A stretch of DNA of 23,574 bases. Source: a virus. Below the pieces are notes generated by a model. The model saw only the letters and a list, made by a program, of their open reading frames with translations, ran no database searches and was not told where the DNA came from. This document shows, piece after piece, positions 448 to 8,524 of this stretch; the stretch's first letter is position 1; each line of letters begins with the position of its first letter. The DNA lies in IMG/VR virus record IMGVR_UViG_3300047481_001051, positions 1-23,574 of that record; one strand, 5' to 3'. The position numbers and the translations under genes are program-made.

Positions 448-476
448 TTGACAAACGCTTTTGGCTGTGGTATAGT
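448..476 (+). promoter_or_regulatory. Near-consensus sigma70 promoter (P1)
   Basis: TTGACA (448-453) and TATAGT (471-476) are separated by exactly 17 bases, with a TG at 468-469 giving an extended -10 (TGGTATAGT). Initiation is expected near 482-484, just before the structured leader. It probably drives the small protein at 666 using host RNA polymerase. Confidence 0.8.
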
Positions 477-481
477 TATGA

Positions 482-665
482 TAAACTAGCCGAACTTCAC
501 GGTTCGGCACATCTTCCTTAGTTAGGCGTTCGCCTAGCTGGATTGGCGTCACCTGCCCGGCTGCAAGAGAAGTGCAGCCCTTCTCCTAGAAGTGGTGAGC
601 GGCCCGGCGGCATCCCGGGTTCATTCTCTGGTTACAACCGCTTGTTCGAAAGGATCAAAGCGACA
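482..665 (+). ncRNA. GC-rich structured leader RNA with overlapping hairpins
   Basis: From the predicted start of P1 to the ATG at 666 lie about 184 bases with unusually dense pairing. Stems include 489-495/502-508 (7 bp); 520-527/532-539 (8 bp with one G-U); 559-565/573-579 (7 bp, loop AGAGAAG); and 603-607/615-619 (5 bp). Within this, GAGAAG (567-572) lies in the loop of the 559-579 hairpin and is complementary to CTTCTC (580-585), which can instead pair with AGAAG (588-592). These pairings compete, as in an attenuator or riboswitch-like leader. The segment is much richer in GC than its surroundings. It matches no RNA family I know and does not fold as a tRNA. It may be a 5' UTR regulating the 666 gene or an independent small RNA. 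Confidence 0.4.
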
Positions 666-977: not shown

Positions 978-1131
978 GGCCGGGCTGCTAGGGCAGCCTC
1001 GCGTAAAACGTATACTGGCAGCCCCTAAAGGGCTGCAACGTAATCGGCAGCATACGTAAAAGCGTAGGCTCTATATACGTAAGCTCTATCTTGCGGGAGC
1101 ACTAACGATTATATCACAAAAACCAGTACTT
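978..1131. other. Intergenic region with two hairpins sharing a GGCTGC stem
   Basis: GGCTGC/GCAGCC (983-988 with 993-998) and GCAGCCC/GGGCTGC (1018-1024 with 1030-1036) are perfect stems with short loops. Neither is followed by a T-run, so they are not textbook terminators, although their place just after a stop codon suggests 3' end protection or weak termination. The same GGCTGC stem sequence occurs in the leader hairpin at 559-579. Downstream come two TACGTAA elements and paired GCTCTAT words within about 1053-1090. Confidence 0.5.
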
Positions 1132-1156
1132 GTCAAGAAAAATCTTTTTACTTGAC
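1132..1156. promoter_or_regulatory. Inverted repeat overlapping the -35 of P2, candidate operator
   Basis: GTCAAG (1132-1137) and CTTGAC (1151-1156) are perfect inverted repeats. The interior continues as AAAA/TTTT (1139-1142 with 1146-1149) around TCT, with one A-A mismatch. The right arm contains most of the -35 hexamer TTGACT (1152-1157), so a protein bound here would compete with RNA polymerase. Transcribed from upstream it would also be an AT-rich hairpin followed by TTTTT, a weak terminator shape. Confidence 0.4.
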
Positions 1157-1180
1157 TTTTTGCCCAAAGTGTGCTATATT
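1152..1180 (+). promoter_or_regulatory. Extended -10 sigma70 promoter (P2) for the structural operon
   Basis: TTGACT (1152-1157), a 17-base spacer and TATATT (1175-1180), with TG at 1172-1173 (TGCTATATT). It lies 30 bases before the first fibre ATG, in an AT-rich setting. It is the only strong promoter I see before a run of closely spaced + strand genes, so it probably transcribes the late operon. It resembles P1, including the TGTG-N-TATA around the -10. Confidence 0.8.
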
Positions 1181-1209: not shown

Positions 1210-2601
1210 ATGGGATTTTTAATTACTCAGCCAGGCGAGGGATCGCAGAATTACAAAACTGCTGTCCGAGCCGCTAGCTCAGCTAATGTGGCTCTAACAG
1301 GCTCTGCGCCTATCCTACTGGGTGGAGTAACCCTAGCTAACAACGACCGTATATTATTAAAAGATCAAGCTAATCCAGTCGAAAATGGTATTTACGAGAT
1401 AGCCATTTCAGGCGGTAGCTATGTTTTAAGTAGAGCAGTAGATGCTAATACTAGTCGTGAAGTAGTACCCAACATGCTAGTACCTGTATCTGAAGGTACA
1501 TATGCAGAACAACTTTTCCAACTAACAACTGATGGTCCTATCATTTTAGATACAACACCGCTAAGCTTTGGCTTTGCAGTTCTATATGAACACGGTTTAT
1601 TACCAGGTTTATTAGACGATGATCATACACAGTATGTAAAGTTTCAAAATACCTCCGTGCCAACATCTATACCTGTCTTTGCTGACGGGAGCGGTCGAGT
1701 TATTAAAGATAACTCAGGTTGGCGTATTACTGGCTCAGCGCTAATCCCATTTGCTGACGGTGTTGGTGATATCGGAGGTTCCGCTATTGCACGGCCAGGC
1801 GAAGTCTGGGTAAAAACTCGCATCAACTTAGATAGCTTAACTGCTGCCAAAGTAATGATTACTAGCAGTGGTAAAGATCTTGCTAGCTCAAGCTTAGATG
1901 CTGCACAACTACTGTACTTAGCAAATGTAACCAGCGATATTCAAGCACAACTAAATGATAGAATCGTTGGCCCTGCAAGTGCTATTGATCGTTCAATTCC
2001 AGTATTTGATGGTACTACTGGAAAACTATTACGGGATGGTTCTGGGTACTCAATCCAAGGTTCGGTGCTACGATCATTTACTGATGGTGGTTCAGACATT
2101 GGACAAGTTACTAGCTACAGACCTGGTAACGTATTTATTAAAACGAAAATCAACTTAGATTCTTTAACAGCATCTAGAGTTGTTATTTCGAATGCTAGCA
2201 AAGATTTGATATCTTCTGCTACAACATCAACTGAATTAGGCTTTTTAAGTGGTGTTACAAGTTCAGTACAAAATCAGTTAAATGGAAAAGAAAACAAAGC
2301 ATCTGTTACCAGAATTACAAAGACAGCTAATTACGCAGTTGCTGCTACAGACGACTATATAGGATGTGATAGCGCAACGCCAGCTGCTAGTTTTACTTTG
2401 ACTTTACCAGATGCTAGCACAGCTTACAGTGGTAAGCGTTTAATTATCAAAGACGAAGGTGGTCTTTGCACAACATACAATATTATCGTAAATGCTGCTG
2501 GAGGACAAACAATTGACGGAAGCAGTTCCTATACTCTTAATAGCAATTACGAGTCAGTCACTCTTATCTGTAATGGGACAGATAAGTGGTTTATCATTTA
2601 A
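1210..2601 (+). CDS. Tail fibre protein with N-terminal fibre domain and two internal repeats
   Basis: 463 residues. Residues 16-122 follow the common phage fibre pattern VRAASSANVALTG, then NDRILLKDQANPVENGIYEI, then a predicted beta strand set ending TTPLSFGF. LLPGLLDDDHTQY (130-142) is a motif seen in many phage fibres. Residues 149-251 and 257-360 are tandem repeats sharing IPVF, DIG, RPG, VWVKT/VFIKT and INLDSLTA. Residues 363-463 form a C-terminal beta domain (TIDGSSSY, YESVTLICNGTDKWFII) that is paralogous to the end of the next gene. Start ATG 1210 has AGAGAGG (1194-1200) upstream. It would be displayed on the virion and take part in host binding. Whether it attaches to tail or capsid cannot be told. 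No enzymatic motif is seen. Confidence 0.8.
   Translation: MGFLITQPGEGSQNYKTAVRAASSANVALTGSAPILLGGVTLANNDRILLKDQANPVENGIYEIAISGGSYVLSRAVDANTSREVVPNMLVPVSEGTYAEQLFQLTTDGPIILDTTPLSFGFAVLYEHGLLPGLLDDDHTQYVKFQNTSVPTSIPVFADGSGRVIKDNSGWRITGSALIPFADGVGDIGGSAIARPGEVWVKTRINLDSLTAAKVMITSSGKDLASSSLDAAQLLYLANVTSDIQAQLNDRIVGPASAIDRSIPVFDGTTGKLLRDGSGYSIQGSVLRSFTDGGSDIGQVTSYRPGNVFIKTKINLDSLTASRVVISNASKDLISSATTSTELGFLSGVTSSVQNQLNGKENKASVTRITKTANYAVAATDDYIGCDSATPAASFTLTLPDASTAYSGKRLIIKDEGGLCTTYNIIVNAAGGQTIDGSSSYTLNSNYESVTLICNGTDKWFII
1654..2289 (+). repeat. Two tandem repeats of about 104 codons inside the first fibre gene
   Basis: The segments encoding residues 149-251 (1654-1962) and 257-360 (1978-2289) align along their whole length at protein level, for example INLDSLTAAKVMI with INLDSLTASRVVI and DIQAQLND with SVQNQLNG. 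DNA identity is lower, so the duplication is old or maintained by selection. Repeat number often sets fibre shaft length. Confidence 0.75.
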
Positions 2602-6811: not shown

Positions 6812-8524
6812 ATGGCTAAACATTTTACAAAAAAGTTTAAAGAAGCCTATGAAAAGGTTTTATTGATAGCGGAGCTTGAAGGGCCAGAGAGGGGCATGCT
6901 GGCCTTTCGAGACGCTATGTTAGAGCTGGGACACGAAGAAAGAGTCCGTAACCTTTATAGGGTTCAAGATAAGCTCACAAAGCAAGCTAAGTTTTTTGTA
7001 CCTAACGCTCCACAAGAGCAGTACTTAAAAACTAAAGATACTAGAAACATTATTCTCAAATGCAGGCAAGTTGGCTTTACAACGCTGAACTGTATCAGAG
7101 CACTTGATTATGCATTATGGGAATCCAACATGAGGACTGGCATTTTATGCCACAAACTGCAAGTTGTTAAAACGATTTTTAATGATATCACAAAGTTCTG
7201 TTATAATTGGTTTGTACGCGATTGGGGCCATCTTTACAAACCGGTGGAAAAAAGCGACTCTAATACAGCGCTTTCTTTTGCTAGCGATGGTCTTGGCCGT
7301 CCCCTGGAGTCTTCTATTCTTGTATTACATGACTTCCGTGGTAAAACGATTCATTTCATGCACGTTTCAGAAGCTGCGCGGATCGAAAAAGACAGGCTAG
7401 TAGGATCGCTAAACGGAGTGCCAGACAACGGCGAGATTACTTTAGAATCAACCGCTGCTGGTAGGTCTGGGGAATTTTACAGACTATGGCAAAGCTGGCG
7501 AGCTAAAGGAGCTAGCGCTCCTTACAAAGGCTGCTTCGTGCCATGGTATAAACACTATCCGGAAAACCCAGAAGACTGGGATATGCCTGATGGTACAACG
7601 CTTACTAATCGAGAGCGAGAGCTACTAAGCTCATATAAGAATAAGATTAGTGAAGCACACATTTTTTGGCGTCGCTGGTGCATTGAAGCAAAGTGTGGAG
7701 GGGATGAGGAGCTATTTGAAAACGAATACCCTACCAACGACCAAGATTGCTTTTTAACCGGCGATGCAAACGTGTTCTCAAGTAGCATCCTAAAGATGCA
7801 AGACCGGAACACAAGAGACCCTATTTTCGTTGGCCACTTGATTGCAGACGGCAACAAGATGGAAATACACGACGACCCAAAGGGATGCATCGCTATCTGG
7901 GAAGAACCTGACCCGTCGCATACTTATTCGATTGGGGCAGATCCCAGTGGCGGTGTGGGTCAAGATAATGGAGCTGCTTATGTCAAAGACAACAAGACTA
8001 ATAAACTTGTTGCTCGCATTTGGGGTGACCTTGCTCCTGCTGATTTTGCTAGAGAACTATACAAGCTTGGTAGATTTTATAATAACGCTTGGGCATGCGT
8101 TGAAGCCAATAATCATGGTCATGTAGTTGTCCATGTGTTAAAAGAAATGGGTTACCGGAATTTATATAAGCGGTCAACCATAGATGAAATGACTAACAAA
8201 CCGACAAAAAAAGTAGGTTTTGTTACCACGAATCAGACTAAGATTATGATTACCGAGAAGCTTAAGAGTGCTTCTAAAGAAGGTAAACTTATCATACTTG
8301 ATAAGGAGCTAATCTCGGAAATGTCAACATTTGTTCAAATATCGGGTAAAAGCGGTGGAACTGTAAAGAGACAAGCAACCGCAGACGCACATGATGATTT
8401 AGTGATGGCAGCTGCTTTAGCCGAAGAAATGAGTACCTCTCGTAATTGGGATAGCGATGAGCAACCTTCATATGAAGTAAGCGAGTATGCTATTGACCCC
8501 GAAACGGGATTTATAATAGGGTAA
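6812..8524 (+). CDS. terL: Terminase large subunit (ATPase and nuclease)
   Basis: 570 residues, a normal length. The ATPase domain has CRQVGFTT (84-91), the Walker A variant with Arg and Gln typical of phage terminases, Walker B with catalytic Glu in IHFMHVSEA (E187), and LESTAAG (211-217) as coupling motif. YPTNDQDCFLTG (306-317) is the familiar linker. The nuclease (RNase H fold) has D377 in GADPSGG, E431 in VEANNHG and the aspartates of ADAHDDLV (524-531). It cuts concatemeric DNA and pumps it into the procapsid through the portal. I chose ATG 6812, two bases after the previous stop, rather than an in-frame TTG at 6791 that overlaps the previous gene and encodes only seven extra residues. 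No Shine-Dalgarno is evident, so coupling is likely. No partner small subunit is visible in the window. Confidence 0.96.
   Translation: MAKHFTKKFKEAYEKVLLIAELEGPERGMLAFRDAMLELGHEERVRNLYRVQDKLTKQAKFFVPNAPQEQYLKTKDTRNIILKCRQVGFTTLNCIRALDYALWESNMRTGILCHKLQVVKTIFNDITKFCYNWFVRDWGHLYKPVEKSDSNTALSFASDGLGRPLESSILVLHDFRGKTIHFMHVSEAARIEKDRLVGSLNGVPDNGEITLESTAAGRSGEFYRLWQSWRAKGASAPYKGCFVPWYKHYPENPEDWDMPDGTTLTNRERELLSSYKNKISEAHIFWRRWCIEAKCGGDEELFENEYPTNDQDCFLTGDANVFSSSILKMQDRNTRDPIFVGHLIADGNKMEIHDDPKGCIAIWEEPDPSHTYSIGADPSGGVGQDNGAAYVKDNKTNKLVARIWGDLAPADFARELYKLGRFYNNAWACVEANNHGHVVVHVLKEMGYRNLYKRSTIDEMTNKPTKKVGFVTTNQTKIMITEKLKSASKEGKLIILDKELISEMSTFVQISGKSGGTVKRQATADAHDDLVMAAALAEEMSTSRNWDSDEQPSYEVSEYAIDPETGFIIG

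Follow-up and report, generated by a model that had tools for sequence, protein, structure and literature searches.

The window analysed here, comprising the whole stretch of 23,574 nucleotides, is a linear virus record of 23.6 kb whose plus strand carries the genes of a phage terminase, an SU10-type portal, a major head protein, and an adaptor. The closest cultured relatives share approximately 35% of residues in the terminase and 33% in the head protein. The locus considered below contains the following features.

448–476, plus strand: sigma70 promoter TTGACA-17-TATAGT with an extended −10 element (TG before the −10), 11/12, by consensus match only
489–508, plus strand: 5′ hairpin A, 7 bp, GCCGAAC/GUUCGGC, retained in L124 and L126
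520–539, plus strand: 5′ hairpin B, retained with altered sequence in L124 and L126
666–977, plus strand: gene of the small basic protein DUF6321 (Pfam PF19846; score 58.4 bits, cut-off 28.5), an optional neighbour
1108–1136, minus strand: perfect sigma70 promoter (12/12) facing the RNA in a convergent manner, its position kept in the group
1152–1180, plus strand: promoter belonging to the tail gene itself, TTGACT-17-TATATT
1210–2601, plus strand: tail-fibre-like gene (PHROG 11518 match), the next constant gene to the right

The promoter at 448–476 lies ahead of a GC-rich, stem-packed stretch, as an earlier note made from the letters of this DNA had described: the GC content rises from 0.32 (301–450) to 0.59 (501–650). 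From the position of this promoter, transcription would start at approximately 482–484. Although the promoter is identified by consensus match only, its position is conserved across the phage group described below. The segment 482–665 was evaluated to have a minimum free energy of −69.5 kcal/mol (z = −2.6), and none of 200 shuffled sequences was as low. When the contig was scanned in 255 windows of the same size, this segment ranked second by energy and 25th by z, so that its folding energy does not by itself mark it as unusual; the comparison between relatives does. Far stronger folding was observed at 2598–2781, about where the first tail gene ends, and at 7474–7657, within the terminase gene (z of approximately −7.2 for both, 30 shuffles).

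The part of the RNA that is shared between relatives spans 545–619, and consists of a hairpin (P1) with an H-type pseudoknot (PK1) followed by a GC hairpin (P5). In the window, two competing helices (P3 and P4) are inserted into it. These elements are located as follows.

545–557, plus strand: P1 hairpin, stem 545–547/555–557, conserved 7-nt loop GUCACCU at 548–554, with covariation
549–553, plus strand: 5′ strand of PK1, UCACC, partner 594–598, 100% paired in 20 sequences
559–579, plus strand: P3 hairpin, GGCUGCA-AGAGAAG-UGCAGCC, an optional insert within the pseudoknot, found in five differing sequences
567–585, plus strand: P4 alternative helix, GAGAAG (567–572)/CUUCUC (580–585), retained in 6/6 long forms
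590–600, plus strand: conserved AAGUGGUGAGC, comprising the end of the long loop, the 3′ strand of PK1 (594–598), and then GC
603–619, plus strand: P5 hairpin, CCCGG/CCGGG, stem 603–607/615–619, loop CGGCAUC

The loop segment UCACC pairs with GGUGA located 40 nt downstream, and the long loop between them ends in AAGU, giving the order AAGU, GGUGA, GC over 590–600. Covariation was seen in P1, P3, and P5. The compensating variants of P1 are GGC/GCC, GGU/ACC, CGC/GCG, CCC/GGG, and AGC/GCU, while the PK1 strand is nearly invariant, with a single compensatory change (CCACC/GGUGG in L124). For P1 and PK1 together, 98.7% of the cells were paired in 20 distinct sequences. Their covariation value was 0.250, compared with 0.065 ± 0.018 in shuffles that ignore relatedness (0/500 as high), and 0.00–0.06 in slid controls. 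The P5 loop is CGGCUA or AGGCUA in most relatives, versus CGGCAUC in the window. A nested hairpin, in which GGC-bulge-UCACC pairs with GGUGA-GCC, was considered in place of the pseudoknot and rejected, as it paired 47/72 cells against 68/72 for P1; RNAfold favours this nested hairpin over the pseudoknot in several members. The G–U pairs occurring in the helices on the plus strand point to this strand as the probable RNA and make it less likely that the structure is carried by the antisense strand.

Ten related contigs extend as far as this site, and every one of them carries the RNA: the window, L001/L132, L082, L124, L126, L128, L130, L131, L141, and L153. This group was assembled by pattern searches and by using the head and terminase proteins as queries for neighbourhood searches. 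A TTGACA/TTGACT-17 promoter lies upstream at a similar place in the nine contigs that extend that far (L141 ends earlier). The gene of DUF6321 follows the RNA in 7/10 contigs; the other three (L082, L128, and L141) lack it, and in these the gap between the RNA and the tail gene is just 160–290 nt or so. Judging from this presence and absence between the RNA and the tail gene in close relatives, DUF6321 looks like an exchangeable small gene, and in the window genome it would be an optional passenger that is merely co-transcribed behind the RNA. A translated leader was also considered for this region and rejected, as the in-frame extensions of DUF6321 are wholly different between relatives and are missing where the gene is missing.

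Conserved structure upstream of DUF6321 homologues, for which the earlier note had proposed a search, is kept within the phage group and absent elsewhere for most homologues, whose upstream sequences are unrelated; the exception is L001, in which the core lies approximately 170 nt before the gene with a leftward promoter in between. This indicates that the gene is the wrong handle for collecting the RNA, and that the tail/terminase neighbourhood should be used instead. The outcome that the note would have counted as a refutation thus holds for most DUF6321 homologues at large but not within the group, where it is the RNA that stays constant rather than the gene. Its suggestion that the element controls the small basic protein was not borne out, as 3/10 relatives are devoid of DUF6321 and distant members precede other genes, tRNAs, or tmRNA. 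The RNA is hence more than a mere switch of the gene next to it.

The same note had emphasized competing pairings, and the positions it gave (GAGAAG at 567–572, CTTCTC at 580–585, and AGAAG at 588–592) were confirmed. The stem 559–565/573–579 has 7 bp and encloses GAGAAG in its loop. The energies are −10.7 kcal/mol for P3, −4.9 kcal/mol for the GAGAAG/CTTCTC hairpin, and −1.6 kcal/mol for the hairpin at 580–592. In six long forms the insert reads GGCUGCA-AGAGAAG-UGCAGCC-CUUCUC or its equivalent, and both helices are kept with compensation: the five sequences of P3 are paired in all but one cell (one bulged base in L082), and P4 occurs as GAGAAG/CUUCUC, GGGAAG/CUUCUC (L126), and GAAGAUC/GAUCUUC (L082). 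The geometry of the pseudoknot, with 0–1 nt between the 3′ strands, suggests that P3 with all of its 7 bp and a complete P4 would be mutually exclusive, so that the note described them fairly as competing. Either P3 and P4 may exchange, or P3 may open at its base to permit a second pseudoknot. The third pairing (580–584 with 588–592) did not hold up, as it is present in the window and the near-identical L124 only and is absent from the other long forms. Furthermore, the short forms L128, L130, L131, and L153 have neither P3 nor P4 and still retain the core, and three of them (L130, L131, and L153) directly precede DUF6321. The competition is thus an optional feature, and the idea that it is the main function of the RNA is not supported.

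Scans of genome and viral collections gave loci that share the P1-loop-GGUGA core but carry a different terminal hairpin, GG-AAGCAGAG-CC; the loop of the terminal hairpin is not conserved between subtypes. A search with AGUGGUGAGC...GGAAGCAGAGCC, in which GUCACCU was left unspecified, yielded eight contigs, all of which contained GUCACCU and the flanking stem, and a looser pattern search added L230, L231, L233, and L234. A model built on distant members only (R1) matched the window at an E-value of 8e-4 and L128, L130, and L153 at 7–8e-7, while the reverse test recovered L160 at 4e-7; these E-values are optimistic, since the members were fetched through sequence boxes and the likeness of the boxes is partly selected. 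The flanking stems, together with whichever box each search left unnamed, were unselected in these searches. The pattern gave 30 hits in the genome collection, where about as many were estimated to occur by chance, and only four of the 30 (L173, L178, L189, and L195) had the flanking stem context with the GGAAGCAGAGCC hairpin. L147, L151, L156, and the repeated GTCACCTAC gene hits (L157–L159 and L162–L169) were set aside as chance or coding matches.

One copy of the core was seen per genome. Unrelated phages contain it, in several cases with a tRNA or tmRNA gene next to it; its occurrence in Patescibacteria is rare (4/380 genomes, two of them with degenerate forms). In L203, a tRNA lies 14 nt upstream of the core and a tmRNA downstream; L204 has a tmRNA neighbour, and tRNAs are adjacent in L202 and L234. 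The tmRNA genes just downstream of the core are permuted (RF04321, RF01849; L203 7115–7477, minus strand; L204 1193–1552, plus strand). In L178 and L226, the core adjoins chromosomal-looking genes, such as hrcA-like and smc-like genes, by ORF reading. A strong terminator lies 205 nt downstream of the RNA in L226, and another is located upstream of it in L233. In nearly every locus the next gene is on the same strand, and the distant members mostly head co-directional units. Hammerhead-like ribozymes were observed 90–140 nt behind the degenerate core relatives in Patescibacteria, at 1421–1474 of L227 (minus strand, scoring below the Rfam gathering score) and at approximately 1640–1690 of L228 (plus strand, by pattern only). 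Tandem weak matches to YrlA (Y RNA-like, with tRNA-like modules), all below the gathering score, occur within 1 kb of the core in L204 (1911–2040) and L233 (1019–1154, minus strand).

A scan with Rfam 15 (4227 families, both scan modes) gave no family over the RNA in the window and no match over the core in any relative or distant locus scanned. The best score in the window was a chance lncRNA match on the other strand, 16.8 bits against a threshold of 70. DNA similarity searches in the phage collection gave weak scattered hits, and none of these revealed the RNA in a cultured phage. Likewise, no description of it was found in the literature as covered by open-access main text, with supplements and subscription journals outside this scope. 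The proposal of the earlier note that this is an undescribed phage RNA element is supported, the element being real and conserved in view of the covariation and the Rfam blank; a free small RNA was one of the options that the note itself named. The family is new to Rfam, while the kind of object, a structured phage non-coding RNA, is already known.

Several known systems resemble parts of it. In the pistol ribozyme, a hairpin loop forms a pseudoknot with the strand just before a second hairpin; the topology of our core is similar, but the conserved letters differ and no Rfam match was obtained. The put and EAR elements, of which put belongs to phage HK022, are structured RNAs found a short distance after a promoter or preceding a long unit, whereas the RNA described here has an H-type pseudoknot core in which GUCACCU/GGUGA is conserved, and it matches no Rfam family. 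The RNA antitoxins of the ToxI type in type III toxin–antitoxin systems are H-type pseudoknot RNAs that are mimicked by a phage (PMC3475682). This core has the H-type pseudoknot in common with ToxI, without tandem repeats and without an Rfam match. GOLLD and ROOL are also structured phage non-coding RNAs (PMC12286853). GOLLD often adjoins tRNA genes. They are much longer than the RNA described here, and their Rfam models gave no match at the window locus or in the distant loci searched.

We consider there to be an even chance that the segment from 482 to approximately 640 encodes a member of an undescribed family of structured non-coding RNAs and that this RNA functions as a molecule in its own right. 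The strong promoter at 448–476 would produce this RNA, which would then work separately from its neighbours; a conserved host factor, be it an RNA-binding protein, RNA polymerase, or the ribosome, may dock on its nearly invariant pseudoknot letters, and the inserted P3/P4 may be a peripheral element able to rearrange. That the pseudoknot is kept nearly letter for letter suggests docking on something conserved in bacteria. Signs of an independent transcript are the tRNA/tmRNA neighbours (L202–L204 and L234) and the terminators (L226 and L233). Counting against it are the same-strand next gene in nearly every locus, the group of the window, which has no intrinsic terminator after the RNA nor one between the RNA and DUF6321, and the DUF6321 start codon, which lies within approximately 15–30 nt of P5 in L126, L130, and L153, an arrangement expected of a leader. 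A broader and more tentative proposal, to which we give somewhat less than even credence, is that the core represents an undescribed RNA class, a module by which many unrelated phages and some Patescibacteria bind one highly conserved bacterial machine. If true, such a target would explain both the near-invariant letters and the tRNA/tmRNA placement. The compact pseudoknot spans the phage group (contigs up to 40 kb), phage contigs of 60–210 kb, of which some carry tRNA/tmRNA clusters, and a few Patescibacteria, and this spread points to a common bacterial target. Well-defined RNA families are few in phages, and a core of approximately 50–110 nt is open to direct probing, mutation, and use as bait, while its covariance model can find it in transcriptomes.

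The main rival to a free RNA is a cis-acting leader that alters the transcription complex started at its own promoter, like HK022 put/EAR, in which the folded nascent RNA would let the polymerase pass downstream hairpins and untranslated RNA genes. It holds this place because the members mostly head co-directional units and the group of the window has no terminator. The RNA lies directly behind the promoter, strong GC hairpins separate it from the late genes, and the units headed by distant members include tRNA/tmRNA units that need protection from termination. However, the tail gene has its own promoter, the RNA of L226 is followed by a strong terminator, that of L203 stands behind a tRNA and not at a promoter, and no Rfam match to a known antitermination RNA was obtained; we regard the cis-acting leader as rather unlikely. 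It is decidedly improbable, and largely refuted, that the competition of P3 and P4 switches the expression of DUF6321 in the manner of an attenuator or a riboswitch-like leader. Such a switch would account for the compensating changes of both helices in six long forms and for the RNA adjoining the DUF6321 start in three relatives, but L130, L131, and L153 precede this gene without P3/P4, the long forms L082 and L141 possess P3/P4 and no DUF6321, and no terminator lies between the RNA and the gene. There is also no constant gene partner, as other genes, tRNA, or tmRNA follow in distant members.

A self-cleaving or self-processing RNA was considered improbable. Its order of hairpin, loop pseudoknot, and second hairpin, together with the A-rich linker, recalls pistol, and the two degenerate relatives lie upstream of hammerhead-like ribozymes, but these hammerheads adjoin the core, which therefore need not cut; moreover, the core matches no Rfam ribozyme and its terminal hairpin loop varies between subtypes. 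Very improbable is a replication primer or control RNA with a convergent antisense promoter, as in ColE1 RNAII/RNAI: the group has convergent strong promoters and the intergenic position is divergent, but distant relatives are found within tRNA clusters or between other genes. That the locus is GC-rich DNA with chance hairpins and no RNA function has a negligible probability. This would agree with the low rank by z, and is already refuted by the covariation and the conservation across groups.

The leftward promoter at 1108–1136 was observed at the same place in L082, L124, L126, L128, L130, L131, L132, L141, and L142. Its leader, extending to approximately 978, holds GC hairpins and mostly also repeated TACGTA/TATACGTATA palindromes, which may serve as operator sites or belong to a second structured RNA.
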